Positions 7,223-23,045 of a stretch of DNA of 64,000 nucleotides are shown here, in pieces; within the stretch, counting starts at the first letter, position 1; each line of letters begins with the position of its first letter. The stretch spans positions 62,001 to 126,000 of the forward strand of contig NZ_VHKL01000011.1 of the NCBI RefSeq assembly GCF_007474605.1, in the 5' to 3' direction. A model generated the notes under the pieces. That model searched no databases. It was not told where the DNA came from and saw nothing but the letters and a program-made list of their open reading frames with translations. Made by a program: the position numbers and the translations under genes. The DNA is from Rhodoligotrophos appendicifer (lineage in GTDB: Bacteria > Pseudomonadota > Alphaproteobacteria > Rhizobiales > Im1).

Positions 7223-7560
7223 GGCAGAGCTCTATATGATACAGACCTGTCTCACTCCTATAGAAGCTGCTGGATTTGGTCAACGGAGATCGCAAGCGCG
7301 TGTCGCGTATTTTCTAAGTTTCGCGACAAAATTGCCGGCGCTGATTTTTCAGCGGATTTCCATCGCAAAGTCAGAGGCAAAATTCGCTCGCTTACGGCGG
7401 ACTCTCACGCCAACTGCTGGCGGCTTTCTGGTCCGCCAGCTTGAGAGCCGCCATTCCGCTCTCCACCAGTTACAGACCACCAGTCACAAGAGCGGACTTG
7501 CAGCTTTCAGGAGATCGCCAACCCCGCATGGACGACTAAAGTGAAGCGCAAAGCTGTCGG
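7223..7560. other. Intergenic region without a recognised gene
   Basis: Lies between tetR and the 3' end of the large hyu/liv operon. Apart from the putative TetR operator I see no coding sequence with family resemblance, no RNA gene and no strong terminator. Confidence 0.5.
7241..7250. promoter_or_regulatory. Putative TetR operator half-palindrome ACAGACCTGT
   Basis: Inverted ACAG/CTGT arms around AC, just upstream of the tetR start (7222). Position and symmetry fit TetR autoregulation. The arms are short, so this is tentative. Confidence 0.35.
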
Positions 7561-8661
7561 TTAGGTCTTCGGCCAGCTGCGGCTTGGGTTGGCGGCAGCC
7601 GTTGTGCATCGGGGGCTTGCGCCGCGCAGTGTTTCGGCGGTGGGGTGGGGCGGGCTAGGAGGGGGGGCGCCGGTGAATTGAGTCGGGTCGAGGGCGGGGG
7701 TGCGGTCCAGGGCTTGGGCGGTGGCCTGGTAGGAGAGGAATGCGCCCCATCCCGCGCCGGCGGCGGCGGCGGGATAGGCTATGTTGAAGCGCGACCTTGC
7801 GGGGATGTCGAGGACCACGGACGCGTTCAGGACCGAGGGGCATTCCCCGGCGGCTTCGGCGAGGGCTGAAACCACGCCGGCGCGTATGGCGGACAAGGGT
7901 GCGTTGCGGCCATCGGGGTCCATGGGCACGGCATTTCCGGTCACGCGGATCTGGCAATCCGTCTTTTCGAACTGGAGCTCGAGGCCCGCGTCCGTGCCCT
8001 CCTGCGCGCGGCCCGTCGGCGCCAGAGTGAGCTTGGCCAGGGCGCTGGCGGCGGCGTCGTGCATCTCCCGGCTCCGGCGTTCGAGGGCTGCGGGATCGGT
8101 GTCGAGGGTGGTCTCCACCAGGGTCGCCGCCAGCCGGTTCAGGGCGGGGAGAATGAGGCGCGGGTCGCGGACATTGGCCGCGAGATAGTGCTGCAGCATC
8201 TCGGGCAGCTGTCCTCTCTCGAGGTCGACGCGAAGGCCCGACAGCCTGACGCCCTCATGCATGATCTCGCGGCCGAAGGTGAAAATGTCCTTCCGCATGG
8301 CGCCGATATCGGACAATCGCAGGGCACCACCGGCGAAGGCCAGCAGGCGGCCCTGGACGAAGACGGGCGCCACCATGGCGATCGTGGCCAGCCCCACGCC
8401 GCCGAGATAGGGATCGTTGCTCAGGTAAAGCTGGCCGTCGCGCCAGGTGTCGCCGGGATCGCGCAGCAGGGCCGTTCGGGCGACGGCGTCCAGCATCGTG
8501 GAGAAGATCGGCAGGTCCTGCTGCTGCGCCAGGCTTTGTCCGCCGGAGTCGAGGATGGCGAAACAGGCGGGCCAGGCTTGGGTGGCGGCGGGGGAGGCTG
8601 CCGCCAGATGCGCGCGCATCCGTGGCGGAAGCTCGGTGATGCTGCCGTTCACGCGGGTCAT
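7561..8661 (-). CDS. Short, degenerate HyuB-like protein (probably catalytically inactive)
   Basis: 366 aa from MTRVNGSITELPP, whose ATG overlaps the upstream hyuA stop as ATGA. It aligns with the N-terminal two thirds of HyuB (SNDPYLGG at residues 81-88) but lacks the normal C-terminal third; family members are 520-600 aa. The two His/Asp signatures are lost: NDPYxGGTHxxD reads NDPYLGGVGLAT, and the HxxDxG motif reads RLSDIG (115-120). The last 30 residues are Pro/Ser/Ala-rich and unlike the family. A run of seven G at 7671-7677 within this tail could mark a frameshift. It may be a structural pseudo-enzyme subunit or a decaying gene. Confidence 0.7.
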   Translation of the reverse strand: MTRVNGSITELPPRMRAHLAAASPAATQAWPACFAILDSGGQSLAQQQDLPIFSTMLDAVARTALLRDPGDTWRDGQLYLSNDPYLGGVGLATIAMVAPVFVQGRLLAFAGGALRLSDIGAMRKDIFTFGREIMHEGVRLSGLRVDLERGQLPEMLQHYLAANVRDPRLILPALNRLAATLVETTLDTDPAALERRSREMHDAAASALAKLTLAPTGRAQEGTDAGLELQFEKTDCQIRVTGNAVPMDPDGRNAPLSAIRAGVVSALAEAAGECPSVLNASVVLDIPARSRFNIAYPAAAAGAGWGAFLSYQATAQALDRTPALDPTQFTGAPPPSPPHPTAETLRGASPRCTTAAANPSRSWPKT

Positions 8662-10700
8662 GGCGCAGCCTCCACGGCGCTGGCGGATCGCGTCAGGATC
8701 AATGTTCCGGTGTCGTGCACCGTGAGGCTCCAGTCGGGTGGCACAAAGCTGGTGGCGAAATGATCCTCGACGATGGCGGGGCCGGCACAGGTGAAGCCCG
8801 CGGGGAGATCGGGGCGCCAGAAAAACTCCGCCTGACGCAGCTGGCCGCCGAAGTAGATCTCGGACCGCTCGGCTCGGGGCGCCGCGCCTTCGGGCTTGGA
8901 GGCCATGGTGATGCGGCCGGCCTCCTTTCGCGCCACAAGCCTGAGATTGACGATCTGTACCTGCTTTTCCGGGAAGCTGTGGCCGAACCTCTCCTTGTAG
9001 AGGGCGTGGAAATTCGCGATCCAAGCGTGGCACGCCGAGGGTCCGATCGCCGAGTCCGCGACCGGCACGGAGAGTTCGGAGGCCTGGCCGCGATAGCGAA
9101 TGTCGACGGCGCGTTCGATGAGGATCTCCTTCGTCTCGAGACCGTATCGGGCGAACTCCGTGCGCGCCGCCTGGTCCAAGGCGTCGAAGGCCGCGGCGAG
9201 GGCGTCTATGTCGAGTGCGACTGCGTCCGCCGGATGCGCCTTCACCAGGTCCACGGTGAAGTCGCTGGCGAGCAGGCCGAGGGCGGACAGGACCCCCTGG
9301 TGCTCGGGCACCACGACCGTGTCGATCATGAGGTCATCGGCGACTTCACAGGCATGCAGTGCCCCGGCGCCACCGAAGGCGAGAAGGGCGAAATCGCGGG
9401 GGTTATGGCCGCGCTCGATGGAGATCAGCCGGATGGTCTCGGTCATGTTGGAGTTCGCGATGCGCCGAATCCCCTCGGCCACCTCCAGGGCTGAGAGCTG
9501 CAGCGTCTGCGACAGCCTGCCAATGGCCGCGGCGGCCAAGTCGAGGCGAAGCTCCAGGGCGCCGCCGAAGAAGCGGTGCGGTCGCAGGATGCCCATGAGT
9601 GCGGTGGCATCGGTGGTGGTCGGCTCCGTTCCGCCCCTCCCGTAGCAGCAGGGACCCGGATCGGCGCCCGCACTGCGCGGTCCGACCCGCAGATATCCCG
9701 CCGCGTCAACGGCGGCGATCGATCCGCCGCCGGCGCCGACGACCTGGATGTCGAATGTGGGCGCGCGCACGGGCAGGCCATCGACCTTGTTGTCATAGGA
9801 GAGCGTCGCCTGCAGGTCGCGTACCAGGCAGACATCGGTGCTGGTGCCGCCCATGTCGAGCGTGATGAAATCGCGGACACCGGACAGTCCGCCCATGAAG
9901 ACGGCGCCGACCACTCCGGCTGCCGGTCCCGACAGCACGACATTGACCGCCTTCTCCTTGGCAGCCTGGATCGGAATGATCCCGCCGGAGGATTGCATGA
10001 TCTGGATGTTGCCCTGCAGGCCGTTGTCCTGCATCAGCCGTTCGATCTCGCCCATATAGCCGGCGACCACCGGCCGCAAATAGGCACTCATGACCGTCGT
10101 GCTGGCGCGTTCATATTCGCGGTATTCCGGATTGACCACGGAGGACAGGCTCACCTGGAGGGAGGGGAAACGCTCGCGAAGCCAGTCCTCGAGCTCCCGT
10201 TCGTGGCGCGGATCGAGGTAGGAGTGCAGCAGGCAGACGGCGACCGAAGAGATCCCGTCGCGCTCGACCAATTGCCTGAGTTCGGCTTCCAGGCGCAGAT
10301 CACAGCTCAGGGGAGTGACCACTGCGCCGGTCGCGTCCAGTCTTTCCCGCACTTCGAGGGACCATTGGCGCGGCACCAAAGGCTGCGGCGCGGTGTAGTG
10401 CATATCGAAGATGTCGGATTTCTCGTGCCGCTGGATCTCGAGGATGTCGCGATGGCCCTCGGTGACCAGCAAGGCGGTGGGGGCGCCCTTGCGCTCGATC
10501 ACGGCATTGGTCGCTACCGTCGAGCCATGGACGAGGCTGGTGACGCCCGAGGCGTCCGGCCGCCAGCGCAGCAACGCGTCGAGGGCACCGAGCGCCGGGT
10601 TGGAAGGCGTACTCAATGCCTTGGCGGATTCAATCTGTCCGCTGTCCGACACGGCGATCAGGTCGGTGAATGTTCCACCGATTTCGATACCCACGCGCAT
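8658..10700 (-). CDS. HyuA-type hydantoinase/oxoprolinase ATPase subunit
   Basis: 680 aa, full length. Motifs: EIGGTFTDL (6-14), HGSTVATNAVIERKGAP near 58-74, DMGGTSTDVCLV near 280-291 and GAGGGSIAAVDAAG near 318-331, with MQSSGGIIP and LSGPAAGVVGA between them. All are typical of active HyuA. It follows the 548-aa hyuB by 6 bp and overlaps the short hyuB-like gene by 4 bp. Because the downstream HyuB is degenerate, the upstream HyuB at 10707-12353 is the likely functional partner. Substrate unknown; N-methylhydantoinase and acetophenone-carboxylase-like members share this fold. Confidence 0.88.
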   Translation of the reverse strand: MRVGIEIGGTFTDLIAVSDSGQIESAKALSTPSNPALGALDALLRWRPDASGVTSLVHGSTVATNAVIERKGAPTALLVTEGHRDILEIQRHEKSDIFDMHYTAPQPLVPRQWSLEVRERLDATGAVVTPLSCDLRLEAELRQLVERDGISSVAVCLLHSYLDPRHERELEDWLRERFPSLQVSLSSVVNPEYREYERASTTVMSAYLRPVVAGYMGEIERLMQDNGLQGNIQIMQSSGGIIPIQAAKEKAVNVVLSGPAAGVVGAVFMGGLSGVRDFITLDMGGTSTDVCLVRDLQATLSYDNKVDGLPVRAPTFDIQVVGAGGGSIAAVDAAGYLRVGPRSAGADPGPCCYGRGGTEPTTTDATALMGILRPHRFFGGALELRLDLAAAAIGRLSQTLQLSALEVAEGIRRIANSNMTETIRLISIERGHNPRDFALLAFGGAGALHACEVADDLMIDTVVVPEHQGVLSALGLLASDFTVDLVKAHPADAVALDIDALAAAFDALDQAARTEFARYGLETKEILIERAVDIRYRGQASELSVPVADSAIGPSACHAWIANFHALYKERFGHSFPEKQVQIVNLRLVARKEAGRITMASKPEGAAPRAERSEIYFGGQLRQAEFFWRPDLPAGFTCAGPAIVEDHFATSFVPPDWSLTVHDTGTLILTRSASAVEAAP

Positions 10701-10706
10701 GGTCCC

Positions 10707-12353
10707 TCACATCACCGATTCTGCTGTCACCAGACCGGACATGCGGTCCTCGCGGGAGGCCGCCCGAGCCCGGTTTCCGGGCGGCCCATAGCCGCCACCG
10801 CCGCCGCCGACCATGCGCAAGCGGTCCCCCGACTTCAGGAGGAAGCCCGTCTTCGATGCGAGGGGGATGAGTTCGTTGCCCCGCTCCACCTCGATGCGGC
10901 CCGGCAGGCCGTCGCCACCGCCTGCCGCGCCCGGGGCGCCGTATTTGAAGCGGTCGGTGAAGACCGTGACCAGGACATCATCCTCGAGGACGTCATATTC
11001 GCGGATTTCGCCCGCGCCGCCGCGCCATTGCCCGGGCCCGCAGGAATCCTGCTCCAGCCCGTAGCGGCGAATCCGCAGGAACGGAAATTGGCGCTCCACA
11101 TATTCGGTGGGCGCGTTGGAGCAGTTGCTCAGGGGGAAGGGCAGCGCGTTCGGCCCGTCGCTCCCGTTGCGCGCGCCCCAGCCTCCGGACAGCACCTCGA
11201 CGAAGATGTCGAAGCGGCCGTCCCGCATGCGGCTGAGCGCCAAGCAAATGGAGGAATTGAAGCCCGTGGCCATCACGCGGTCGGGAATCGCCTTCTGCAG
11301 CGCATCCATGACGGCGTCATAGACCCGATAGGCGGTGATGATCCGGCCATGGACGCTGGCCGGCGGAAGCGGGTTGAGGAAAGATCCTTCCGGGACCCGC
11401 ACCTCGATCGGACGCACGGCGCCGGCATTGTGCCACATCTCGATGCCAGCCCCCAGGACCTGCCGGACGATGGTCCAGACCGCGCCCAAGGTGGAGGAGA
11501 GGTTGGCGTTCATCATGCACGGGCGCTGGGCATCGGTGCCGGCAAAGTCGATGACCAGCGTGCCGCCGGTCTTGGTCAGACGCGTGCGCACCACCATTTC
11601 GGGGCCGCCGATGCCGTCATCATCCAGCCAGGCGCTGCCTTCCACGTCGAAATCATCGAGAGATTCGAGCGTTGCCCGCATGACGCTCTCGGAGGCTGCG
11701 ACGAGCGCCGTCATGGTGGCGCAGATGGTGTCGCTGCCGTAGCGCCTGGCCAGGGCCTGCAGCCGGCTGCGACCCGAAAACAGGGCGACGAGCTGGGCGT
11801 TGAGGTCACCCGTGGTCTCATCGGGAACGCGGACGTTTGCCGTGATCAGCTGCTCGAACAAGGCCGGGAAACGACCATTATCGAGCCTCATGCGCAGAGG
11901 CGGGATGATCTTGCCTTCCTCATAGATCTCCGAAGCACGGGGAAGAATTCCCGGTGCGGCGCCCCCCACATCGATGTGGTGCGCAATGGAGCCGACAAAG
12001 GCGATCCGCCGCCCCTCGGCGAAGACGGGCATGAACAGCGCGATGTCGTTCAGGTGATGGCAGCCACGATAAGGGTCATTCGTGACCAGGATCGTGTCCT
12101 CGGTCATCTCATCGGGATCGAATTGTTCAAGGCAAGCGCCGATGGCGGTGGTCATGGCACTCAGAAGAATGGGAATGTGGTCGGGCTGGGCGATGAGCAC
12201 GCCGTCGGCATCGAACAGGGCCGTCGACATGTCCTTCGCTTCGCGGACGATGGAGGAGAAGGCATTGCGGAGGAGGTTGATCCCCATCTCCTCGGCGACC
12301 GCATGCAAGGCGCGGCCGATGATCTGCTGCTCGACGATTCCCGGTGCACTCAC
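10707..12353 (-). CDS. HyuB-type hydantoinase/oxoprolinase subunit
   Basis: 548 aa from a GTG codon (GTGAGTGCACCG) overlapping the hotdog gene stop as GTGA; the family-like region begins there although the frame is open further upstream. The signatures NDPYRGCHHLND (92-103) and AHHIDVGG (124-131) keep the His and Asp residues. The C-terminal half has the expected LSGGWGARNGSDGPNA, CGPGQWRGGAGE and GGGGGGYGPP segments. Between the hotdog gene and a hyuA gene, it probably pairs with the HyuA at 8658-10700. Confidence 0.87.
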   Translation of the reverse strand: MSAPGIVEQQIIGRALHAVAEEMGINLLRNAFSSIVREAKDMSTALFDADGVLIAQPDHIPILLSAMTTAIGACLEQFDPDEMTEDTILVTNDPYRGCHHLNDIALFMPVFAEGRRIAFVGSIAHHIDVGGAAPGILPRASEIYEEGKIIPPLRMRLDNGRFPALFEQLITANVRVPDETTGDLNAQLVALFSGRSRLQALARRYGSDTICATMTALVAASESVMRATLESLDDFDVEGSAWLDDDGIGGPEMVVRTRLTKTGGTLVIDFAGTDAQRPCMMNANLSSTLGAVWTIVRQVLGAGIEMWHNAGAVRPIEVRVPEGSFLNPLPPASVHGRIITAYRVYDAVMDALQKAIPDRVMATGFNSSICLALSRMRDGRFDIFVEVLSGGWGARNGSDGPNALPFPLSNCSNAPTEYVERQFPFLRIRRYGLEQDSCGPGQWRGGAGEIREYDVLEDDVLVTVFTDRFKYGAPGAAGGGDGLPGRIEVERGNELIPLASKTGFLLKSGDRLRMVGGGGGGYGPPGNRARAASREDRMSGLVTAESVM

Positions 12354-12778
12354 GGTTCGATCTCGGCGCGCAAGGCGGTCGGGGTCGTTCGCTGAAACTC
12401 GAGCGGCGTGACGGTCACAGCCTCGGCCCTGGCGATGAGGATCGGCTGCTCGAGCACCTCGCCGTGTGAGGGCTCCGTCCCGATGCCGAAGGTGCGCGCC
12501 ACGCACCAGCACTCGTATTGCCGCTTGCGCGAGGTTCGCCCCACGGAGAGCAGCTTGGCCGTCACCTTCAGAAAGTCGCCCTCATAGGCCGGTGCCAGGA
12601 ACTCGACCTTGTCCATGGCGCGCATGAACCCGCCATCGCCATCGAGCAGATAGGCGAGCTTCGTGCCGGCCATGCCGAACAGCTCGACGATCGTCCCGAG
12701 GGACACGACATGGTTCGAATAATGGCTGTCGACGCGAATTTCGATGCTGGTTTCGTAGGCGGTCAGATCCGGGGTCAC
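12350..12778 (-). CDS. Hotdog-fold protein resembling 3-aminobutyryl-CoA ammonia-lyase (Kal) or acyl-CoA thioesterase
   Basis: 142 aa single hotdog domain. Residues 18-75 (SHYSNHVVSLGTIVELFG, then LLDGDGGFMRAMDKVEFLAP and YEGDFLKVTAKLLSVG) match the Kal-like clade of lysine fermenters, whose members carry a similar HY...GGN...LFGD...D.VEFLAP.Y.GDF pattern. Kal removes ammonia from 3-aminoacyl-CoA. Acyl-CoA hydrolase is the main alternative. The gene is embedded between two hyuB genes in an operon that also has an acyl-CoA ligase, which makes CoA-level chemistry on an amino acid intermediate plausible. Confidence 0.7.
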   Translation of the reverse strand: MTPDLTAYETSIEIRVDSHYSNHVVSLGTIVELFGMAGTKLAYLLDGDGGFMRAMDKVEFLAPAYEGDFLKVTAKLLSVGRTSRKRQYECWCVARTFGIGTEPSHGEVLEQPILIARAEAVTVTPLEFQRTTPTALRAEIEP

Positions 12779-12789
12779 TCTCGTCCTCC

Positions 12790-14427
12790 TCAGCTATAGC
12801 CATTGCGCTTGTCGTCTTCGCGGGCCTTTGCTTCCCGCTTCTCCGGACTGCCCCAGCCCCCGCCGCCGGGGGTGCGCAGATGCGCCCCGTCGCCGGCCTT
12901 GACCCTGAAGCGGTCGATCTTCGTGAGATGGGGCGGCGTGGTTTCCGTCCCTCCCGCATGAAAACTATGGCGCGCCGGCTCGCCGGCAGCCCCGCCTTGC
13001 AACCCGTAAGCGCCGCGCGTGCCGCGATCGCCGAGCAGCGTGATGGTGCCCTCGCCGTCGCGCAGGGTGAAGGCGGCCTCGACCCCGAGCCCGCCGCGGA
13101 ACTGTCCGTCGCCGGCAGACCCTTCGCGCACGCTGTAGCGGCTGAACAGGATCGGCACCGCTTGCTCCAGGACCTCCAGCGAGCTGTTCCGGGAGGACGA
13201 CACGATCGTCGAGCCGTTGGTCAGCCCGTCGCCATCGCCATGCCCGCCATAGCCGCCACCGAAGAAGAACACCGTCGCATAGCGGCCCTTGCTCGGCGAA
13301 AGCCCGCCGATGCCGATATTCGTGCCGGTGCCGAAGGCGCTGGCGGGGACCTTGTCCGGGATCGCCTTGGACAGCGCGCCCATGACGACGCCGATCAGCC
13401 TCTGGGTGGTCTCGGTGGTGCAGCCGCTGCAGGGGCTCGGCGGCTCCGGATTGAGCATCGAGCCCTTGGGCACGATGATGTGGAAGGGCACGAAGCAGCC
13501 GGAATTGACGGGCACGTCCCAGAACACATGGTTCATGGCGATCATCAATCCGGTCACCGTGCAGCTGATCGGGCTGTTGAACGGGCCCCGGCAGGCCGGC
13601 GCGCTGCCCGAGAGATCGAAGGTGATCTCCGAGCCCTTGACGGTCATCACCAGGTCGATGAGCAATTGGCCCTCCTCGACGCCGTCGCTGTCGAGGACAT
13701 CGGAAAATTGATAGTTGCCGTCGGGAATGCTCTCGATATGAGAGCGCATCAGGGCTTCGGAGCGCTGCTTCAGCTCCGCCGTCGCCCGCAGCAGCACGTC
13801 CTTGCCGTGCACCGCGATGAGCTCGTCCAGCCGCTTGACGCCGATCTCCAGCGCGTTGATCTGCGCTGCCATGTCGCCGTAGCGGTCCTCGCTGACCCGC
13901 ATGTTCAGCAGCATGACTTCGAGCAGGCCCTGGTTCAGGACGCCCCCGTCATAGATCTTGACCGGCGGCAGCCTCAGACCCTCCTGGTAGATCTCGGTGG
14001 CGACCGGCGTGAAGCCGCCGGGGGTCATGCCGCCCACATCGGGCCAATGGCCGGTGTTTGCCACGAACAGCACCACCTTGCCGTCATGGAAATAGGGGCG
14101 GACGAACTTGACGTCCATGGTGTGCGTTCCCCCCATATAGGGGTCGTTGATCACGTAGACGTCGCCCGGCTTCATGCCTGCCGGATCATGCCGCTTGATG
14201 ACCTCCTGCACCGTGTGCTGCATCACCGTCGTGAACAGCAGGATGCCGGTCGTGCCCTGCACGATCACCTCTCCGGTCACCCCGTCATAGATGCCGCTGG
14301 CACGGTCCCAGGCGTCCGCGATGACGGGCGAGATGGCGGAGGCGGCGATCACCGCGTCCATTTCCTCGGCGATCTGGTCAAGTCCACCCTTGATGACGGT
14401 CAAGGTTACGGGATCAATGGTGCTCAT
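12790..14427 (-). CDS. HyuB-type hydantoinase/oxoprolinase subunit
   Basis: 545 aa from MSTIDPVTLTVIKGG. The ATG shares one base with the hyuA stop (TGATG); a GTG one codon earlier is equally possible. The signatures NDPYMGGTHTMD (94-105) and GHWPDVGG (126-133) are complete. The C-terminal half has CSGCTTETTQ, FFFGGGYGGHGDGDG and GSAGDGQFRGGLGVE as in active family members. Directly downstream of hyuA (14427-16463) and probably forming a complex with it. Substrate not predictable beyond a cyclic amide, imide or hydantoin. Confidence 0.88.
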   Translation of the reverse strand: MSTIDPVTLTVIKGGLDQIAEEMDAVIAASAISPVIADAWDRASGIYDGVTGEVIVQGTTGILLFTTVMQHTVQEVIKRHDPAGMKPGDVYVINDPYMGGTHTMDVKFVRPYFHDGKVVLFVANTGHWPDVGGMTPGGFTPVATEIYQEGLRLPPVKIYDGGVLNQGLLEVMLLNMRVSEDRYGDMAAQINALEIGVKRLDELIAVHGKDVLLRATAELKQRSEALMRSHIESIPDGNYQFSDVLDSDGVEEGQLLIDLVMTVKGSEITFDLSGSAPACRGPFNSPISCTVTGLMIAMNHVFWDVPVNSGCFVPFHIIVPKGSMLNPEPPSPCSGCTTETTQRLIGVVMGALSKAIPDKVPASAFGTGTNIGIGGLSPSKGRYATVFFFGGGYGGHGDGDGLTNGSTIVSSSRNSSLEVLEQAVPILFSRYSVREGSAGDGQFRGGLGVEAAFTLRDGEGTITLLGDRGTRGAYGLQGGAAGEPARHSFHAGGTETTPPHLTKIDRFRVKAGDGAHLRTPGGGGWGSPEKREAKAREDDKRNGYS

Positions 14428-16463
14428 CACGCTGCCTCGATGACGATGTTCAAGCTCTCATGCACGACGGCCTTGAAGCCGGGCTCGACGAAGGTGGTGG
14501 CGTCGGGTTGGGAGAGGATCGCCGGTCCTAAGACAGTGGCGCCGCGCGGCAGTGCGAGCCGATCGAAGACTGTGCTCGCATGCCAGCGGCCATCGAAGAA
14601 GACCTGTTGAGACTTCAATGGTTGGACGGCAATCGATGGATCCGGCGCAATGATCAGCTCCGACAGGCGCGGCGGGCGATGGCTGCTCGACACCGTGAGC
14701 CGCACATTCGCCAGGATGATGCCGGAGCGATCCAGCAGCACGCTGAAGCGCTCGCGATAGGCGGCATCGAAGGCTTTGCGGATCGCCTCCGGCGTCAGCG
14801 GCATGTCCGCGGGAAAGGCAACCTGGATCGTATGGGTCTGACCGCGATAGGCCATGTCGGCACCGAGTTGCACCCGAACATCCGCGTCCGCGACCCCTTC
14901 CTCCAGGAGCAGCCGGCGCCCTTCCTGCTCGTAGGTGTCATAGATGGCGCGCAGGCTCTCGGGGTCGAGCTCCGCCAGGTTGATGTTCACGGTGCGGACG
15001 AAATCGTGCCGGAGCTGGCCGAGAAGGCAGCCGAGCGCCGAAGTGATCCCGGGGAAATAGGGAATGATCGCGCGCGCCAGTCCCACCTGTCGGAGGATCC
15101 GGTTCGCAAAGAGCGGCCCGGCACCGCCAAAGGCGACCAGGGAAAACCCCCTGGGATCGTGGCCACGCTCGACCAGCCGTCGACGCAGGTGGCCTGAGAC
15201 CTTGTGGGCCGCGACCGTCAGGATCGCTTCCGCCGCGGCCAGCGTGTCCAAGTTCAGGGGGCCGCCCACGGTTTCGTCCACAGCCCGCCGCGACAGGTCC
15301 GGGTTCATCTGTCGACCATGCTTCTGGCCGATGCCGCCTTGAGGATCGAGCAGCCCGGTGACCAGGGCCGCATCCGTGATGGTCGGCTGGGTGCCGCGTC
15401 CATAGCAGGCGGGACCCGGATCGGAGCCCGCGCTTTCCGGGCCGATCTGCAGAATGCCCGTCTTGTCGATCCAGGCGAGGCTGCCCCCGCCCGCACCCAC
15501 CGCATCGATATCGAGCATGGGGGTGGCCAGGGGGATGCCGAATTCGAGCGCCTTCTGTTGGGTGAGGGACGGTTGTCCGCCCCGGATCAGGCAGATATCC
15601 AGACTCGTGCCGCCGATATCGGCGGAGACCACGTCGGCAAATCCCATCTCCTCCGCGATGGCCGCCGCCGCCGTCGCACCTCCGGCCGGACCCGACAGGA
15701 TCGTATTGGCCGCGAGACGAGGCGCGACCTCGGCGCTCATCAGCCCGCCATTGGACTGAACGATGAGCAAGTCGCGCTTATAGCCGTGCTGCTGCAGCCG
15801 ATCGGTCAGCCGCCGGAAATAACGCGACAGCAAGGGCTGCACATAGCCGCTGACAACCGCGGTGCTGGTGCGTTCGAATTCGCGGATGGCCGGCAGGATT
15901 TGCGACGACACCGCAATGTAGTCGTTCGGCCAGATCGACTTCACGGCCTCCAGGGCTGCGCGTTCGTTGGCCGGATTGGCATAGGAGTTCATGAAGCAGA
16001 TCACCAGAACCTCGGCGCCATCCGCCAGCAGCCCCTGGGCCACCGTCCGCACCTGATCCGCATCGATGCCCTCCAGGATCTCTCCCTCCGCGCTCACCCG
16101 CTCGCGGACCTCTCGCCGCAGGCTCCGCTCGATCAGCGGCTTGAAGGTGCCGGTGAGGCCGAATGTATGCGGCCGGTCGCGACGCCGGAGCTCAAGCACG
16201 TCGCGGAAGCCTTCCGTGGTGATGAGGCCGCAGCGCGCACCCTTACGCTCGATGACCGCATTGGTCGCGACCGTCGTCCCATGGATGACGAGGTCCACAT
16301 CGGCAAGGTCGATGCCCAGCTCCTGGGTTCCGTTGAACAGCCCGTCGGCCTGGTTTTCGGGCGTGGTCGGCACTTTGGCGACGGCGACACGCCGGGCCGC
16401 CTCGTCGATAAAGATCAAATCGGTATGGGTGCCGCCGATGTCGACACTGAGATAGCTTGCCAT
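14427..16463 (-). CDS. HyuA-type hydantoinase/oxoprolinase ATPase subunit
   Basis: 678 aa, full length. It shows VDIGGTHTDL (7-16), HGTTVATNAVIERKGARCG near 60-78, the IVQSNGGLM and LSGPAGGATAAAA segments near 235-270, DIGGTSLDICLI near 283-294 and GAGGGSLAWID near 320-330. All ATP-binding and hydantoinase-A features are intact. It starts one base after the livG stop, so uptake and catabolic genes are tightly linked. It pairs with the HyuB at 12790-14427. Confidence 0.88.
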   Translation of the reverse strand: MASYLSVDIGGTHTDLIFIDEAARRVAVAKVPTTPENQADGLFNGTQELGIDLADVDLVIHGTTVATNAVIERKGARCGLITTEGFRDVLELRRRDRPHTFGLTGTFKPLIERSLRREVRERVSAEGEILEGIDADQVRTVAQGLLADGAEVLVICFMNSYANPANERAALEAVKSIWPNDYIAVSSQILPAIREFERTSTAVVSGYVQPLLSRYFRRLTDRLQQHGYKRDLLIVQSNGGLMSAEVAPRLAANTILSGPAGGATAAAAIAEEMGFADVVSADIGGTSLDICLIRGGQPSLTQQKALEFGIPLATPMLDIDAVGAGGGSLAWIDKTGILQIGPESAGSDPGPACYGRGTQPTITDAALVTGLLDPQGGIGQKHGRQMNPDLSRRAVDETVGGPLNLDTLAAAEAILTVAAHKVSGHLRRRLVERGHDPRGFSLVAFGGAGPLFANRILRQVGLARAIIPYFPGITSALGCLLGQLRHDFVRTVNINLAELDPESLRAIYDTYEQEGRRLLLEEGVADADVRVQLGADMAYRGQTHTIQVAFPADMPLTPEAIRKAFDAAYRERFSVLLDRSGIILANVRLTVSSSHRPPRLSELIIAPDPSIAVQPLKSQQVFFDGRWHASTVFDRLALPRGATVLGPAILSQPDATTFVEPGFKAVVHESLNIVIEAA

Positions 16464-16464
16464 G

Positions 16465-17256
16465 TCAGAGAGAACCTTCTTTGAGCTCTTTTCGGGCGGA
16501 TTTGCCGAGATAGGCCTCGATCACCGTCTCGTTCCGCTGAATGTCCTGGGGTGAGCCTTCCGCGATGGTCTTGCCGAAGTTCATGACCGTGAGCTCCCGG
16601 CACAGGCCCATGACGAAGGGCATGTCGTGTTCCACCAGCAATACCGTGACGCCGGAGGCGACGATCTCGTGGATCAAGGTTTCGATCTGCTTGGTCTCGA
16701 CCGGATTGATGCCGGCCGCCACCTCGTCCAGCAACAGCAGCTTCGGCTCCAGCGCCAAGGCGCGGCCGATCTCCAACTGGCGGCGATGGCCGTAGGAGAG
16801 ATTGCGCGCGAGCGTGCCCGCCTGCGCCTGCAGACCCACGCGATCGAGAATGGCCCATGCGACCTCCCGGTTGCGCCGGTCCTCCCGCCATTTGGCGGGG
16901 CCGCGGAACATGCTTCCGAGCAAGCCGATCTCGCCATGCACGAAGCGGCCCGCCAGCACCGTCTCCAGTGCCGTCATGTCTTCGAACAGCCGCGGCGTCT
17001 GAAAGGTGCGAGCGATGCCGAGCCGTGCCCGCTTATGGGAGGGAAGCCGGCTCACATCCTGGCCCTCGAACAGGATCTGCCCGGCTGCCGGAGTGTAGAG
17101 GCCGGTGATCAGGTTGAAGGCCGTGGTCTTGCCCGCGCCATTGGGGCCGATCAGCCCATGGGCGGTTCCCCGCGTCACGCTCAGGTTCAAGCCATCCGCA
17201 GCGGTGACGCCGCCGAAATTATGGTGCAGATCGCGGATTTCGAGCAGCGGGCTCAC
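16465..17256 (-). CDS. livG: Branched-chain amino acid-type ABC transporter ATP-binding protein
   Basis: 263 aa ATPase of the HAAT (LivG) type. Walker A GPNGAGKTTAFNLITG at about 37-52, signature LSYGHRRQLEIGRAL near 152-166, and Walker B KLLLLDEVAAG near 172-182, with the long LivG insertion (CF-type RTFQTPRLFEDMTALE) between. It energises import through LivH and LivM. It overlaps livM by 4 bp. HAAT systems carry amino acids but also amides, urea and hydantoins, so the family does not fix the substrate; the hyu neighbours suggest a cyclic amide. Confidence 0.9.
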   Translation of the reverse strand: MSPLLEIRDLHHNFGGVTAADGLNLSVTRGTAHGLIGPNGAGKTTAFNLITGLYTPAAGQILFEGQDVSRLPSHKRARLGIARTFQTPRLFEDMTALETVLAGRFVHGEIGLLGSMFRGPAKWREDRRNREVAWAILDRVGLQAQAGTLARNLSYGHRRQLEIGRALALEPKLLLLDEVAAGINPVETKQIETLIHEIVASGVTVLLVEHDMPFVMGLCRELTVMNFGKTIAEGSPQDIQRNETVIEAYLGKSARKELKEGSL

Positions 17257-18248
17257 GCGACCTCCTGCACGGGCTTGCTGCTCCTGGCGCGCAGGCGGCC
17301 GACGATGGCGTCAACGCCGCCGGCAATGCCCTTGGGCAGAAGCGTCATCGAGACGATCAGCAGCAGACCGTAGACGAGCATCTTATACTCGGCGAGGTCG
17401 CGCATATATTCCGGGATGATGATCAGCAAGGCCGTGCCGATCACCGCTCCGGCGAGGCTCCCATGACCGCCGATCGTGATCATGATCAGCAGCACCAGGC
17501 TCTCATGCCAGGTGAAATTCTCCGGGCTGAGATATTGATAGATATGCGGGATCAAGGCGCCCGCCCATCCGGCCGCGATGCATCCGACCGTGATCACCGC
17601 CATCTTGTAGCGCTCGACCGGAATGCCGATGCTGCGCGCCGCCGGCTCGTTCTGTCCGAGCGCCTGGAACGCCCGGCCGACGCGGCTGTTGGTCATTCGC
17701 AGGAACAGGACATAGGTGACCGTCAGGAAGACCGCCGACACGGTGAAGACACCCGCCGGCGTACTGAAATCGACGCCCAGAATCTCCAGGGGCGGGATGC
17801 CGCTGATCCCAAAGGATCCACCGGTCAGCCCTTTCAGATTGTGCAACAGCTGATAGCAGATGATGCCGAAGCCGAAGGTCGCGATCTTGAAATAGACGCC
17901 CGACAGGCGGATGAGCTGGGCCATAAGCAGGCCGAAGAATCCTGCAAGCAGCGCCGCCCCGATGGAGGCGACAATGAACGGAACCCCCAGCTCCTTCTCC
18001 AGCAGCACCCCCGTATAGGCGCCGATCCCGACAAAGGCGATGTGGCCCAGGGACAGCTGCCCGGCCAGGCCGACCATGAGCTGCAGGCCCAGCGAGGCCA
18101 CCGCATAGCAGGCGATGATCGCGCCGAGATAGAGCCAGAACCCCCCGAGGACGAAGGGGAGGATCCAGATGCAGCCAAGGACCAGCGCCGCGACAAGCCA
18201 TTGCTGCCGGGGCCGCTCATCGGGTGGGATCGGAGTGGGCGTGCTCAT
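17253..18248 (-). CDS. livM: Branched-chain amino acid-type ABC transporter permease
   Basis: 331 aa with 9-10 predicted membrane segments. The family signature SLGLQLMVGLAGQLSLGHIAFVGIGAYTG (about 51-79, quoted here in part) and the cytoplasmic loop NSRVGRAFQALGQNEPAARSIGIPVERYK near 182-210 identify LivM. The C-terminus ends in a basic tail (RARSSKPVQEVA). It overlaps livH and livG by 4 bp each, so the permease pair and ATPase are translationally coupled. Confidence 0.9.
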   Translation of the reverse strand: MSTPTPIPPDERPRQQWLVAALVLGCIWILPFVLGGFWLYLGAIIACYAVASLGLQLMVGLAGQLSLGHIAFVGIGAYTGVLLEKELGVPFIVASIGAALLAGFFGLLMAQLIRLSGVYFKIATFGFGIICYQLLHNLKGLTGGSFGISGIPPLEILGVDFSTPAGVFTVSAVFLTVTYVLFLRMTNSRVGRAFQALGQNEPAARSIGIPVERYKMAVITVGCIAAGWAGALIPHIYQYLSPENFTWHESLVLLIMITIGGHGSLAGAVIGTALLIIIPEYMRDLAEYKMLVYGLLLIVSMTLLPKGIAGGVDAIVGRLRARSSKPVQEVA

Positions 18249-19117
18249 TTGGCAATTCCCTTCCCGATGAGGCCGTTGGGACGCAGCAGCAGCACGAGGA
18301 TCATTACCGCAAAGGCCACGCTGTCCTGGTATTCCGGCGCCAGAAGCTGCCCGCCGACCATCTCGACGACGCCGAGGCCGACGCCGCCGACCACGGCTCC
18401 CGCGATGCTGCCGAAGCCGCCCATGACCGCCGCTGCGAAGGCCTTGATGCCCACGGCCCCCATGTCGAAGGACACATAGATGATGGGCGCGTAGAGGACG
18501 CCGGCCGCGGCGCCGATTGCGGAGGCGATGGCAAAGGAAAAGGAGGAGGCAAAGCCGGCGTCGACGCCCATGAGCTGCGCGGTCTTCCTATCCTCGGCGA
18601 CGGCCCGCAAGGCGAGGCCGGTCCATGATTTGGTGAAGAACCACTGCAGGATGACGAGCAGCAGCACCATGAAGGCCAGGATGTAGAAATACATCGTCGG
18701 CAGCGGATAGCCGGCGAGGCGCGTGATGTCGTGGGCGAGGGGGATCTGGTAGACGACGGGGTTCGCCCCCCAGATCAGACGCGCCCCGTTGCTGAGCACC
18801 ATGCCGATGCCGAGCGTGAGCAGCACGAGATAGATGTCGCTCGCGCCCCGCCGGATGGCAGGGCGGAAAGCGATCCGCTCCAGAACGACGCCCAAGACCG
18901 CCGTCCCCGCGCAGGCGATCGCCAGCACCGCCAGGAACGGCATCTCCGGAAATGCCGTCAGCACGGAATAGCCGAAGAACGCGCCGATCATCATGAACTC
19001 GGCTTGCGCGAAGTTCACGAGACCCATGGCCCGGTAGATCATGCTGAATCCAATGGCCACGAGCCCGTAGATGCAGCCGATCGCGATGCCGCTGAAGATC
19101 TGAGCGACGAACGACAT
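18245..19117 (-). CDS. livH: Branched-chain amino acid-type ABC transporter permease
   Basis: 290 aa, about eight membrane segments. N-terminal AIGCIYGLVAIGFSMIYRAMGLVNFAQAEFMM and the EAA-like loop TGLALRAVAEDRKTAQLMGVD near 187-206 are typical of LivH. It lies 21 bp after the binding-protein stop and overlaps livM by 4 bp. Inner-membrane half of the importer. Confidence 0.9.
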   Translation of the reverse strand: MSFVAQIFSGIAIGCIYGLVAIGFSMIYRAMGLVNFAQAEFMMIGAFFGYSVLTAFPEMPFLAVLAIACAGTAVLGVVLERIAFRPAIRRGASDIYLVLLTLGIGMVLSNGARLIWGANPVVYQIPLAHDITRLAGYPLPTMYFYILAFMVLLLVILQWFFTKSWTGLALRAVAEDRKTAQLMGVDAGFASSFSFAIASAIGAAAGVLYAPIIYVSFDMGAVGIKAFAAAVMGGFGSIAGAVVGGVGLGVVEMVGGQLLAPEYQDSVAFAVMILVLLLRPNGLIGKGIAK

Positions 19118-19138
19118 GGAGGGTCCCCGTATGCAGGC

Positions 19139-20284
19139 CTACTCGACCAGCGTGTCGAGAACGGGCTTGCCGTCCTTCAGCTGGATGAAGGGCAAGGGAC
19201 GCTTCACGTCGCCATTCTCGGTGATCGTGATCTTGCCGGTGACGCCGTCGAAGTCCTTGGTCGCGTAGATCGCGTCGCGCACCGTTTCGCGGGTCACCTC
19301 GCCCTTTTCCTTGGCCCGGCGGATCGCATCGGCGACCACATAGATGGCGTCGTAGCCCATGCCCTCATACTGGCTCGGCGCCTTGCCCGCCCGCTTGGTC
19401 CAGGCTTCCACGAATGCGGCCGCCTTTGGACTGTCGATGGAGCCCGGCAGATAGTAGGTCGCCCCATAGGCGCCCTCCGACGCCGGCCCTGCGATCTCCT
19501 TGAATTGCGGGATCGCCGGTGCGGTATTGTTGAAATAGGGCTTGTCGATGCCGAGTTCGGCCATCTGCTTCACCATGAGCCCGGTATCGGTGTAGAAGCC
19601 GCTGATCACGATGAAATCCGGATTGGCCTTCTGGACCTCCGCCAGCATCGGCTTGAATTCCTTCGTCTGCGGATCGTAGGCCACATTGGCGAGGATCTCG
19701 ATGCCTTCAGACTTCAGCCCGGCGGCGATCGAATTGCCCAGGGATTGGCCGTAGCCATCATTGCGCGACAGCATGTAGACCGTCTTAGGCGCGTGCTTCT
19801 CCTTCAGCCAGCGGGCAATGGCGTTGCCCCAGAGGTCGGTGCTGAGACAGATGCGGGCGAACCATTCATTGCCGACACTCGTCAGTTTCGAATCCTGAGC
19901 CAAGGACGAGAGCACCGGAACCTTCAGGGGCCGGGTGGCCTCCGTCACCGCTTGGGTCTCGGCGCTGGTATGGCCGCCGACGATCACCATCACCTCGTCG
20001 CTGAGCGCCATGCGCCGCGCAGCCTGGGCGGCCTGGGCCGGATTGGCCGTGGAATCCGCGGGGATCAGCACGAGCTTGTCGTCGCCAAGGACGCCGCTGG
20101 CATTGATTTCCTCGACGGCGACCCGGGAGGCCTGCAACGGCTCCGAACCATAGACCGCCACAGGACCCGACAAGGGGCCGACGAACCCGATCTTGATGTC
20201 TTCCGCCTGGGCTCCGAGCGGAAGGCCCAGAAACGATGCAACGCTTGCCGTCAGCAGCAAACGGTAGAACTTCGACTTGGTCAT
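19139..20284 (-). CDS. Periplasmic substrate-binding protein of a HAAT-type ABC transporter
   Basis: 381 aa. The signal peptide (MTKSKFYRLLLTASVASFLG to LGAQA) is probably cleaved after AQA, near residue 27. The mature part is a Leu/Ile/Val-binding-type periplasmic-binding fold: EDIKIGFVGPLSGPVAVYG, then RVAVEEINASGVLGD and the second-domain segment SRNDGYGQSLGNSIAAGLKSEGIEI near 170-195. It supplies substrate to LivHM. Placed between livF and livH. The ligand cannot be deduced from sequence, but its operon implies the compound degraded by the HyuAB enzymes. Confidence 0.9.
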   Translation of the reverse strand: MTKSKFYRLLLTASVASFLGLPLGAQAEDIKIGFVGPLSGPVAVYGSEPLQASRVAVEEINASGVLGDDKLVLIPADSTANPAQAAQAARRMALSDEVMVIVGGHTSAETQAVTEATRPLKVPVLSSLAQDSKLTSVGNEWFARICLSTDLWGNAIARWLKEKHAPKTVYMLSRNDGYGQSLGNSIAAGLKSEGIEILANVAYDPQTKEFKPMLAEVQKANPDFIVISGFYTDTGLMVKQMAELGIDKPYFNNTAPAIPQFKEIAGPASEGAYGATYYLPGSIDSPKAAAFVEAWTKRAGKAPSQYEGMGYDAIYVVADAIRRAKEKGEVTRETVRDAIYATKDFDGVTGKITITENGDVKRPLPFIQLKDGKPVLDTLVE

Positions 20285-20327
20285 TGTTCTCCCTCCTCGT
20301 TTTCCGGGCAGCGATCCTGCCCGACCC

Positions 20328-21050
20328 TCACTTCGACACGCCGCCGAGATAGGCGGCGCGAATTCCCTCGCTGTCGCGAAGCTCGGCAGATGTGCCCTGC
20401 ATCACGATGCGCCCCCGCTCCATGACGTAGGCGCGCTGCGACACTTCCAATGCAGCCTCGGCATTCTGCTCGACGAGAAGAATGGTCACCTGCTCGGCCG
20501 CCAGCTTCGTGACCGTCTCGAACACCATTTCAACCAGGATGGGTGCGAGCCCCATGGATGGTTCGTCCAGCAGCAGGAGCTTCGGCTTGGCCATCAGGGC
20601 CCGGCTGATCGCCAACATCTGCTGCTCGCCTCCGGACAAGGTGCCGCCTGCCTGGTTCTGGCGCTCCTTCAATCGCGGAAACATCTCGAAGGCGCGCTCG
20701 ATTTCCGAGCGCTGGAAGCTCCGCTTCCGCGAATAGGCGCCCATGAGCAGATTTTCCTTCACCGTCAGCTGAGGGAAGATGCTGCGCCCTTCCGGCACCG
20801 TGGCGATCCCCGCCCGGACCACGGCTGCCGGCGACTGGCCTTGAATCTCCTGACCGGCAAAGATCACCTTCCCCTGCCTCGCCTTCAGCTCCCCCGAAAT
20901 CGTGCGGATGGTCGTCGTCTTGCCCGCACCGTTGCTGCCCAGGAGACAGACGACTTCCCCCTCGTTGATCGTCAGGTCGACGCCGACCAGCACATCGCTG
21001 CGGATGTAGCCGGCATTCACGCCTGACAGTCTGAGCAGCTCGTTCGGCAT
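20328..21050 (-). CDS. livF: Branched-chain amino acid-type ABC transporter ATP-binding protein
   Basis: 240 aa from MPNELLRLSGVNAGYI, preceded by GGGAGGGA. An ATG at 21125 that overlaps the ligase stop is possible but would add 25 residues not typical of LivF. Walker A GSNGAGKTTTIRTISG near 37-52, VPEGRSIFPQLTVKENL near 91-107, signature LSGGEQQMLAISRAL near 134-148 and Walker B KLLLLDEPSMG near 154-164 are complete. Second ATPase of the importer. Confidence 0.88.
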   Translation of the reverse strand: MPNELLRLSGVNAGYIRSDVLVGVDLTINEGEVVCLLGSNGAGKTTTIRTISGELKARQGKVIFAGQEIQGQSPAAVVRAGIATVPEGRSIFPQLTVKENLLMGAYSRKRSFQRSEIERAFEMFPRLKERQNQAGGTLSGGEQQMLAISRALMAKPKLLLLDEPSMGLAPILVEMVFETVTKLAAEQVTILLVEQNAEAALEVSQRAYVMERGRIVMQGTSAELRDSEGIRAAYLGGVSK

Positions 21051-21124
21051 TCCCTCCCCGTGCCGGTCCAGATCCGGCAAAATGGCACTTTGACCCTGGC
21101 CTCCGCCCTGCAGATGCAGGGGCA

Positions 21125-22786
21125 TCAGGTCCAGCGGTTCTCCACGAAATCATAGGTCGCGCTCGGGCTTGCCTCCTCTTCCCGCAGCAGGACCTGCTTG
21201 GCGATCTTCTCCGACGGCGTCTTGGGCAGCGGGCCCCGATAGGCGAGGTATCTGGGCACCTTGAACCTGGCGAGCTTCTGCGCGCAGAAATCGAAGATCT
21301 CCTTGGGCGGGACGGTGTCGGCGGTAAAGCCGTCGCCGAGGACGATGAACGCCTTCACCTCTTCGCCGCGCATCTCGTCGGGGACCGGAACGGCTGCGGC
21401 CTCGACGATCTGGGGCGCCGATCGTAGGACCGACTCAACCTCGCTGGCCGCGATGTTCTCGCCGGCCCGCCGGATCATGTCCTTGAGCCGTCCCACGATA
21501 TAATAGAAGCCCTCCTCGTCCTGGCGCGCCAGATCACCGGTGCGGAACCACCCGTCGTCGAAGGCTGCAGTCGTGGCTTCCGGCTTGTTGTGATAGCCGA
21601 GCAGGATGCCGGGTCCGCGGATCTGCAACTCGCCCGCTTCGCCTGCTGCCAGCACCCGGCCGTCGGGGCCAACGATCCGTGCCTCCCGGAACGGGCTGGG
21701 TCGGCCGCAGGACCCCGATCCCACCATCTGCGTGGCTTCCATCGGCATGAACATGCCGGAGCCGATCTCGGTCATGCCGAAGGCTTCGCGCGCGATGACG
21801 TCGTATCGCTCCTCGAGGGCCTGGTGCGTCTCGCGGCTCAAGCCATAAACATTGACGCGGATGATCTCGTTGTCGGCATCCTCCGGCTCCGGCGGCCGCT
21901 TGAACACGATCTCCGGAAACAGGGTGAAGTGGATGCGAAAGTCCCGGACCCAGTGCATGAACCGGCTGGCGCTTTGCCGGCGAGCGGTAAACAGCGTGCC
22001 ACGATGGAGAAGCGTCATGAGCAGAAGCCACTGGGGATCCATGTAGAAGAACGGCACGGCGGCGAGGATGTGCTTGTATTTACGTCCGTCGCGGAAGGCG
22101 TTCACCGTTCCGCTGGTCACCCAATAGCGATGCGTCAGCAGACATCCCTTCGGCATGCCGGTGGTGCCGGAGGTGTATTGAATATTGAGCAGCCGGTCGG
22201 GCTCGATCGTCGCGAGCGCGGGCAGATCGGCAGAGGATTTCGTGCCCGCTTCGGATATTTGGTCCCAGGAATGCCGGCCACCTGCCGCCTTTCCCACGAC
22301 GATCGTTCGATCATCCGCGGGCCGCCCCTGGCCAACCGGGATCTGCTCGATGACGGCGACCGCATCCTCATGGAGGCACAGCCACTCCGCCCCGGCGTCG
22401 CCGAGGACATAGGCCACTTCGCGACTCGTATACCCGATGTTGAGGGGGATCATGACCGCACCCAGCCGTCCCAGGGCGAGCCAGGTGATCGGGAAGGCCA
22501 CGATGTTCGGAAGCATGACGCCCACGCGCGTTCCCGGGCCGATTCCAAGGGCCGAAAATCCACGGGCCAGCCCATGGACGGATCGCAGCAGCTCGGCATA
22601 GGTGAGGGACACGCCCTCCTCGAAGAAGTTCAGCGCCACGGTGTCGGGAACAGCAGCGGCCGCGTCCTCCAGGATCGTGGGCACGTTCGGCGGCAAAGGC
22701 GCGGATTCGATGAGCCTGATCCGCTCTTCGACCGGCGTCACGCTCTGCGCAAGGATGTCTCGTCTCTTCATGCCCACCCGCTTCAT
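21125..22786 (-). CDS. AMP-forming acyl-CoA ligase (CaiC-like)
   Basis: 553 aa adenylate-forming enzyme. It has the phosphate loop YTSGTTGMPKGCLLTH near 208-223, the GMTEIGSG A5-type motif near 338-345, the WFRTGDLARQDEEGFYYIVGRLKDMIRRAGENI hinge region near 420-452 (quoted in part) and the catalytic Lys segment KTPSEKIAKQ near 520. Closest in character to crotonobetaine/carnitine- or other carboxylate-CoA ligases. It converts a carboxylic acid to a CoA thioester with ATP. First gene of the twelve-gene operon. A second ATG (22771) is an alternative start. Confidence 0.87.
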   Translation of the reverse strand: MKRVGMKRRDILAQSVTPVEERIRLIESAPLPPNVPTILEDAAAAVPDTVALNFFEEGVSLTYAELLRSVHGLARGFSALGIGPGTRVGVMLPNIVAFPITWLALGRLGAVMIPLNIGYTSREVAYVLGDAGAEWLCLHEDAVAVIEQIPVGQGRPADDRTIVVGKAAGGRHSWDQISEAGTKSSADLPALATIEPDRLLNIQYTSGTTGMPKGCLLTHRYWVTSGTVNAFRDGRKYKHILAAVPFFYMDPQWLLLMTLLHRGTLFTARRQSASRFMHWVRDFRIHFTLFPEIVFKRPPEPEDADNEIIRVNVYGLSRETHQALEERYDVIAREAFGMTEIGSGMFMPMEATQMVGSGSCGRPSPFREARIVGPDGRVLAAGEAGELQIRGPGILLGYHNKPEATTAAFDDGWFRTGDLARQDEEGFYYIVGRLKDMIRRAGENIAASEVESVLRSAPQIVEAAAVPVPDEMRGEEVKAFIVLGDGFTADTVPPKEIFDFCAQKLARFKVPRYLAYRGPLPKTPSEKIAKQVLLREEEASPSATYDFVENRWT

Positions 22787-22933
22787 CGCCCGCGCTCAGT
22801 CCTGGCCGCGACGCCAGACCGGACGGTCCCCTGTCGATCTGCCGCCGGCTTGCCGCCTGCGTGCCGAGCCGCCTCGACAGACTCGTGCTCAGCGGTCTCA
22901 TTGCAGCGTTGCGAAACAAATTTGTCAAGAAGG

Positions 22934-22949
22934 TAATTTTAGGAAATTA
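22934..22949. promoter_or_regulatory. Inverted repeat TAATTT-TAGG-AAATTA, candidate RpiR-family operator
   Basis: Perfect 6-bp arms with a 4-bp spacer lie between the divergent acyl-CoA ligase (22786) and regulator (23046) starts. Some RpiR-family proteins (e.g. HexR) bind AT-rich TAATT/AATTA palindromes, so this is a plausible operator for the adjacent regulator. Only symmetry and position support it. Confidence 0.45.
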
Positions 22950-23045
22950 TGGTTCTCCGGCGAAAAGCCGGGACGCGCCGCCGTCAGGAACCCCATGGCC
23001 TGACGCGTCAACTCTCCTGTAGAGAGAGCGCAGAGGAGGACGGGC

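Follow-up and report, generated by a model that had tools for sequence, protein, structure and literature searches.

The DNA analysed here (the window) is a stretch of 64,000 nucleotides from Rhodoligotrophos appendicifer (contig NZ_VHKL01000011.1, positions 62,001 to 126,000), and its positions 7561-22786 contain 12 co-directional genes on the minus strand, regarded in this study as a candidate operon for uptake and breakdown of a small nitrogen compound. The gene order is acyl-coenzyme A (CoA) ligase, LivF, periplasmic binding protein, LivH, LivM, LivG, HyuA1, HyuB1, hotdog-fold protein, HyuB2, HyuA2 and HyuB3. A first-pass annotation made from the sequence alone had proposed a ligase, a HAAT-type importer, two HyuAB pairs, a third HyuB and a hotdog protein at this locus, all of which are present. 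The genes, the divergent regulator and the intergenic block are as follows, listed from the regulator towards the end of the operon.

23046..23936, plus strand: RpiR/MurR-type regulator (HTH_6 and SIS domains), divergent from the operon; PF01418 and PF01380 over cut-off; same place in the congeneric genome G004.
22899..22928, minus strand: conserved block resembling a promoter or operator, TTGACA-17-TGCAAT with the palindrome ACAAATTTGT; 0, 1 and 4 mismatches of 30 in the window, G004 and genome G106, respectively; putative function.
21125..22786, minus strand: AMP-forming acyl-CoA ligase (LIG), 553 amino acids (aa); PF00501 and PF13193.
20328..21050, minus strand: LivF-type ATP-binding cassette (ABC) ATPase; PF00005; 88% identity to G004.
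19139..20284, minus strand: HAAT-type periplasmic binding protein; PF13458.
18245..19117, minus strand: LivH permease; PF02653.
17253..18248, minus strand: LivM permease; PF02653.
16465..17256, minus strand: LivG-type ABC ATPase; PF00005 and PF12399.
14427..16463, minus strand: HyuA1 (alpha, ATP-binding), 678 aa; PF05378, PF01968 and PF19278.
12790..14430, minus strand: HyuB1 (beta, metal site), 546 aa; PF02538.
12350..12778, minus strand: Kal/Acl-like hotdog protein, 142 aa, Met36/Lys40 subfamily; NCBIfam KAL 84.7 bits, PDB entry 4mtu, PF03061.
10707..12353, minus strand: HyuB2, 548 aa; PF02538; four metal ligands kept.
8658..10700, minus strand: HyuA2, 680 aa, Glu6 in place of the first phosphate-binding Asp; NCBIfam CapA 510 bits.
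7561..8661, minus strand: HyuB3, 366 aa, N-terminal HyuB part without the four metal ligands; HyuB match over residues 35-168.

Ten genes (ligase, LivF, binding protein, LivH, LivM, LivG, HyuA1, HyuB1, hotdog and HyuB2) were confirmed by Pfam, and HyuA2 and HyuB3 were identified via NCBIfam and matches to PDB sequences. The first Hyu pair has the usual order A-B, and the second has the order B-A. Counted from the ligase gene, the spacings are 74, 43, 21, -4, -4, 1, -4, 11, -4, 6 and -4 bp. The overlaps of 1-4 bp or very short gaps proposed earlier were found at eight of the 11 junctions, but not at the first three; the 74-bp gap is that of the annotated frames, and an alternative LivF ATG at 21125 would overlap the ligase stop codon. 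The several 4-bp overlaps suggest translational coupling. The G+C content at third codon positions is 0.80-0.88 for 11 of the 12 genes, and for HyuB3, computed only within a longer frame (7561-9033), it is 0.76. The tight spacing and the conserved upstream block support the earlier proposal of one operon, which would be read as a single transcript.

As the first-pass annotation had advised, the same gene order was sought in other genomes. The congener G004 has the same 12 genes in the same order next to the same divergent RpiR gene, with protein identities of 82-95% for 11 genes and 52% for HyuB3. Because this order and the divergent regulator are common to both genomes, the operon is not a chance assembly. 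The ratio of nonsynonymous to synonymous distances (dN/dS, Nei-Gojobori method) between the two was 0.031-0.111 for 11 operon genes, while the regulator stood at 0.090 and HyuB3 at 0.332; these ratios are rough, with synonymous distances of 0.8-1.5, and are given without a significance test. The search for relatives covered 397 genomes, a sample of a larger order that includes the genome of the window (G000) and G004. A hotdog match at E ≤ 1e-10 was present in four of them, own genome included, and the close form only in G000 and G004. Within the family, two of the four genomes had a match, and the congener G055 and the family member G092 had none at this threshold. The best matches outside G004 were 49% identical for HyuB1 and 42% for HyuB2, and a close hotdog protein occurred together with a HyuB1 of > 49% identity only in G000 and G004. 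Surveys of the hotdog subfamily yielded 5 of 385 genomes in the class and 1 of 398 in the phylum, each count including the own genome. As far as the genomes searched show, only part of one genus seems to carry the full set of 12 genes.

The block between the RpiR and ligase genes is conserved in the window, G004 and G106. A 20-base pattern of the block, with up to three mismatches allowed, matched the 5.59 Mb genome at a single site; reversed as a control, the pattern gave no match. A promoter consensus scan of positions 5700-24200 did not flag the block; it yielded two sites, both on the plus strand, with 2.7 expected by chance. RpiR relatives also adjoin ligase/hotdog homologues at the loci L017, L032 and L033. 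A candidate operator before the hotdog gene of L033 (Stella vacuolata), with 4 of 18 mismatches, was rejected as chance level given many 4-mismatch hits at unrelated loci in the same scan, which even gave a site with three mismatches in L087.

The binding protein has Gln130, Phe230 and Thr254, conserved in G004, at the places aligned to Thr102, Tyr202 and Glu226 of the leucine-binding protein (LBP), which we take to be its amino-acid-binding residues. Since the protein differs at these three ligand positions, a plain branched-chain binder, which the first-pass annotation had named as evidence against its own proposal, is not indicated, and the imported compound is probably no ordinary branched-chain amino acid.

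The best PDB sequence matches of the Hyu proteins were the N-methylhydantoinase 7hk5 and 6yra, which is taken as the caprolactamase CapAB of Pseudomonas jessenii from its chain lengths, 696 and 581, matching CapA and CapB. The operon proteins resemble these enzymes in the HyuA and HyuB families, the ATP motifs and the beta metal ligands. HyuA1 contains both DxGGT motifs and GSDPGP. In the PDB alignments, HyuB1 and HyuB2 have residues identical to Asp41, His99, Asp102 and His124 of 6yra_B, and the metal ligands of CapB are essential by mutation according to the extract of PMC8453981. In NCBIfam, the scores were 475 (HyuA1) and 510 bits (HyuA2) for CapA, 269 and 274 bits for ApcC, 271 (HyuB1) and 237 bits (HyuB2) for CapB, and 103 and 94 bits for ApcD; none of the four proteins reached any of these cut-offs (1000 for CapA and for CapB, 1500 for ApcC and for ApcD). 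The higher CapA than ApcC scores of both HyuA proteins favour the amidohydrolase side for both pairs, as judged from sequence. They nevertheless stay below the equivalog cut-offs of CapAB (237-510 bits against 1000), HyuB1 and HyuB2 contain no adjacent Cys pair (read by eye), and here two pairs are combined with a HyuB3 free of metal ligands in one operon with an importer and a ligase. Because HyuA1 and HyuA2 are ~35% identical and HyuB1 and HyuB2 ~30%, the two pairs are no recent duplication. The genome (5.6 Mb) has 14 matches to the Hydantoinase_A family (PF01968).

Judged by what the extract of PMC5214803 sets out, the lengths of the HyuA and HyuB proteins and the absence of a gamma-subunit gene are as expected for the Hyd branch. 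These two features and the beta metal ligands agree with the earlier description of the HyuAB pairs as relatives of ATP-dependent amide hydrolases, at the level of sequence comparison. They also bear on a different reading, in which the Hyu proteins would carboxylate an acetophenone-type ketone and the ligase would activate the resulting beta-keto acid. The apc operon for acetophenone carboxylase and benzoylacetate-CoA ligase is similar in its HyuA/HyuB relatives, its CoA ligase and a divergent extra subunit encoded last: according to the extract of PMC5214803, the CoA ligase gene appears to belong to one operon with the apc genes, and the carboxylase contains, besides two subunits of the alpha type, a strongly diverged one of 32-34 kDa whose gene comes last, a loose parallel to HyuA1, HyuA2 and HyuB3. 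However, the gene for the gamma subunit (~15 kDa) is absent here, the only small gene among the twelve being that of the hotdog protein (PF03061); HyuB1 and HyuB2 have 546 and 548 aa compared with 684 for the Apc beta subunit; the extra subunit here is a HyuB relative; the scores are far below the cut-offs for ApcA, ApcC and ApcD (1250, 1500 and 1500); and ketone carboxylation would leave the hotdog protein without a place. The alpha fingerprint R/KERiDsxG described in the extract of PMC5214803, which the alpha' subunit of acetophenone carboxylase lacks, decides little: HyuA2 (RERLDATG) fits and HyuA1 (RERVSAEG) fits in part, with Ser for Asp, but a looser form of the pattern is absent from 9 of the 15 HyuA proteins compared, and it was therefore given little weight. 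As the fingerprint proved weak evidence, we regard ketone carboxylation as marginally less improbable than we did at first, and still as very unlikely; a ketone carboxylase identity is disfavoured on the lengths and the missing gamma gene.

HyuB3 agrees with the third, degenerate HyuB proposed earlier, being half-length and devoid of the four metal ligands. In alignment with HyuB1 and HyuB2, it extends over the N-terminal part only and lacks the greater share of the glycine-rich C-terminal part. The metal-ligand places are occupied by Pro, Gly, Thr and Arg in the window and by Pro, Asp, Thr and Arg in G004, where the Asp at the second place could bind metal. The G004 protein stops short of the last ~35 residues (window 7561-7670), for which it has no equivalent. 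Purifying selection on HyuB3 appears weak (dN/dS 0.33), and its relaxation is clear from the sequence comparison. Among the six blocks of 60 codons compared with G004, two had proportions of nonsynonymous (pN) and synonymous (pS) differences of 0.16-0.24 and 0.57-0.58, respectively, and the other four had pN of 0.26-0.44. A decaying pseudogene is not favoured in view of this dN/dS and the two low-pN blocks, though a slow decay is conceivable; HyuB3 fits best, and probably is, a retained non-catalytic subunit. Its structure model was uninformative, with a mean predicted local distance difference test (pLDDT) score of 32.

The ligase was compared with 105 NCBIfam families, and none of the 25 shown reached its cut-off. 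Relatives of the ligase occur in other surroundings. In Stella vacuolata (L033) and in an alphaproteobacterial metagenome-assembled genome, genes for RpiR, hotdog protein and ligase (ligase 59-60%, hotdog 64-67% identity) are followed by a PotD-type binding protein, and the 20 kb fetched around each of the RpiR-LIG-hotdog loci L017, L032 and L033 contained no HyuAB match. G106 has relatives of RpiR (66%) and the ligase (68%), a distant hotdog protein (31%), a Pot-type importer and a protein resembling FAD (flavin adenine dinucleotide) oxidoreductases. In G004 itself there is a further, different ligase-hotdog pair, accompanied by a FadB/FadJ-like gene (G004:C1 4073057-4083608; L014, L015); a Pot-type importer separates the two hotdog genes, which lie 10 kb from each other, and the second hotdog protein keeps Asp36 and Glu40. 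On the four plasmids examined out of 65 matching records, ligase relatives (47-52% identity) stand beside FAD oxidoreductases, amidohydrolases, amidases, an aminotransferase with an aldehyde dehydrogenase, or an enoyl-CoA hydratase. On Bosea sp. plasmid pNBC550 (L122), a HyuAB-HAAT cluster of the same orientation begins ~3 kb beyond the ligase relative, and an integrase-like gene lies in the interval. These neighbours suggest that the ligase may take acids derived from amines or amino acids. Ligase and hotdog probably form a separate, portable module.

Such portability raises the question of whether the operon is a composite of independently recruited units that share transcription but no single pathway. 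The finding of the ligase/hotdog module with PotD-type importers elsewhere would agree with this, as would the low identity of the best HyuB1 and HyuB2 relatives outside G004 in the 397 genomes of the order. The gene order and the low dN/dS are conserved in G004, however, and the hotdog gene lies between those of HyuB1 and HyuB2 with apparent translational coupling in the operon; we consider a mere composite very unlikely.

The module also bears on the order of steps. In the first-pass annotation, the ring would be opened before CoA activation. Alternatively, the ligase might act first, converting an imported compound with a carboxyl group and an amide ring into a CoA ester, on which HyuAB would open the ring and the hotdog protein would use the resulting amino-acyl-CoA. 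The ligase gene heads the operon, and a precedent may exist in anaerobic indoleacetate degradation: for indoleacetate metabolism, the extract of PMC5214803 names 2-oxoindoleacetyl-CoA gamma-lactamases and that of PMC8453981 names IaaCE. This cluster, likened here by description only, shares with the operon a HyuAB-type lactamase and a CoA-ester pathway. On the other hand, the extract of PMC8453981 gives the substrate as 2-oxoindolacetate, without CoA, and the ligase module elsewhere has no nearby HyuAB match, so that an amide ring is not required in the substrate of the ligase. We regard this order as a less likely alternative.

The hotdog protein is closest in both sequence and fold to the beta-alanyl-CoA ammonia lyase 4mtu (phmmer E 3.9e-12; Foldseek E 1.8e-11), in agreement with its earlier label as Kal-like. 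Its structure model has a mean pLDDT of 91.5, and the matches that follow 4mtu are acyl-CoA thioesterases, several of them hexameric. Against NCBIfam KAL it scored 84.7 bits, below the cut-off of 160, and relatives in L034, L062 and L031 scored 178.9, 202.7 and 155.1 bits in the same test. A scan of species genomes with hotdog patterns gave 146 relatives, of which the best 80 were kept; the close ones among these 80 were L032 (67%) and L033 (65%), and the next was at 45%. Within 5 kb of these 80 loci, some of them on short contigs, nothing resembling HyuA1 or HyuB1 was found at E ≤ 1e-8.

In the 86 other homologues, one per locus, position 36 is Asp in 86, position 40 is Glu in 82 and position 55 is Tyr in 84. 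The second scan pattern accepts only Asp or Met at position 36 and no Val37, which 69 of the 86 have, so the Asp36 count rests mainly on loci from the first pattern. The proteins of the window, G004, L032 and L033 have Met36, Lys40 and Met or Phe55 instead, and the acidic pair is gone. The four further members L126-L129 all have Lys40; position 36 is Met in three of them and Ile in the other, and L129 keeps Tyr55. In the model, positions 36 and 40 are placed on the central helix (27-46). The identity of residues 24-43 in all four close members argues for a change of function and not for decay. Asp36 and Glu40 presumably act in catalysis in Kal/Acl (3-aminobutyryl-CoA and beta-alanyl-CoA ammonia lyases), a role for which the literature searches on this active site gave no source, and since an invariant Asp and a nearly invariant Glu (82 of 86) are replaced by Met36 and Lys40, a Kal-type ammonia-lyase step appears doubtful here. 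The proposal that the protein removes ammonia as Kal does was dropped on these residue counts. Weak matches (E 0.27 and 0.35) to the thioesterase HI0827 would place position 36, if ungapped, at chain position 44; an Asp44Ala mutant of HI0827 has a solved structure, and we take the possible correspondence as a hint only.

Seven of the eight Met/Ile36-Lys40 loci have a linked acyl-CoA synthetase gene, and the eighth (L128) ends at a contig edge. The synthetase is AMP-forming in L032 and L033, where its gene adjoins the hotdog gene, and also in the window and G004, where seven genes of the shared operon separate the two; L126, L127 and L129 have a directly neighbouring synthetase of the ADP-forming type. 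By Pfam, a luciferase-like monooxygenase and an enoyl-CoA hydratase are also encoded close by in L127, and similar-looking genes occur in L126 and L128. Kal-type hotdog relatives were also found on plasmids of Rhizobium gallicum and two Streptomyces (L027, L029 and L030), alongside an adenylate-forming enzyme, a phosphopantetheine-binding protein, an ectoine synthase and a gene annotated as alanine racemase, type III pyridoxal phosphate enzyme or diaminopimelate decarboxylase; this set is possibly a small natural-product cluster.

Taken together, we favour, with a probability of roughly 0.55, a single RpiR-controlled catabolic operon with HAAT import, two Hyd-type amidohydrolases, a portable ligase-hotdog module and a non-catalytic HyuB3. 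The importer would take up a small nitrogen compound. The two Hyd-type ATP-dependent alpha-beta amidohydrolases would activate amide bonds that are cyclic or inert for other reasons and hydrolyse them, either as two steps of one route or on a pair of related substrates, and HyuB3 may be an assembly or regulatory partner of HyuA2/HyuB2. The ligase would turn a carboxylic acid, probably amino or N-substituted, into its CoA ester, which the hotdog protein and housekeeping beta-oxidation might process further. Several observations weigh against this pathway besides the lost acidic pair of the hotdog protein. None of the 12 operon genes encodes an enzyme for the enoyl-CoA step. The fourth beta metal ligand is Gln in the N-methylhydantoinase 7hk5 and is thus not a universal marker. 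HyuA2 retains two of the three phosphate motifs, the first Asp being Glu (IEIGGTFTD) in both the window and G004; this Asp is kept in the other 13 of the 15 HyuA compared, a set that leaves out two further HyuA matches of the genome, and the D11A exchange in CapA significantly reduced product formation according to the extract of PMC8453981. The Asp-to-Glu exchange in HyuA2 is a conservative one. Of the uptake and catabolism scheme proposed in the first-pass annotation, the single operon, the amidohydrolase-type HyuAB pairs and a binding protein not of the leucine type are supported, and the ammonia removal by a Kal enzyme is doubtful. No operon of such content was found in the searches of open-access papers, in line with the earlier remark that no described pathway has this exact set; the locus is a new combination of known parts. 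A bolder version, in which the five Hyu proteins form one machine of two working alpha-beta pairs held by the half-length pseudo-enzyme HyuB3 and feed the Met/Ile36-Lys40 hotdog protein, which would belong to a new subfamily and use CoA esters from the neighbouring ligase, with lysine for the usual acid, as a new type of CoA-ester lyase or hydrolase, is speculative and seems to us rather unlikely.

A second double-HyuAB cluster lies ~3.4 kb to the left of the operon on the same strand (window 3-4120 and L018, G000:C11:50000-62500). Its order is NtaA/DmoA-type flavin mononucleotide-dependent monooxygenase, HyuA, HyuB, HyuA, HyuB, putative DadA-type oxidoreductase and putative class III aminotransferase. 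The monooxygenase scored 567 bits against TIGR03860 (cut-off 280), and a 48% identical relative is encoded upstream of the operon in G004.

Hydantoinase/oxoprolinase relatives are numerous, and the substrates of only a few are known. Here two Hyu pairs share an operon with a CoA ligase and an importer under a dedicated regulator, which offers a defined, testable route to a substrate. For the hotdog protein with its exchanged acidic residues and for HyuB3 without metal ligands, the automatic annotations to be expected would mislead.

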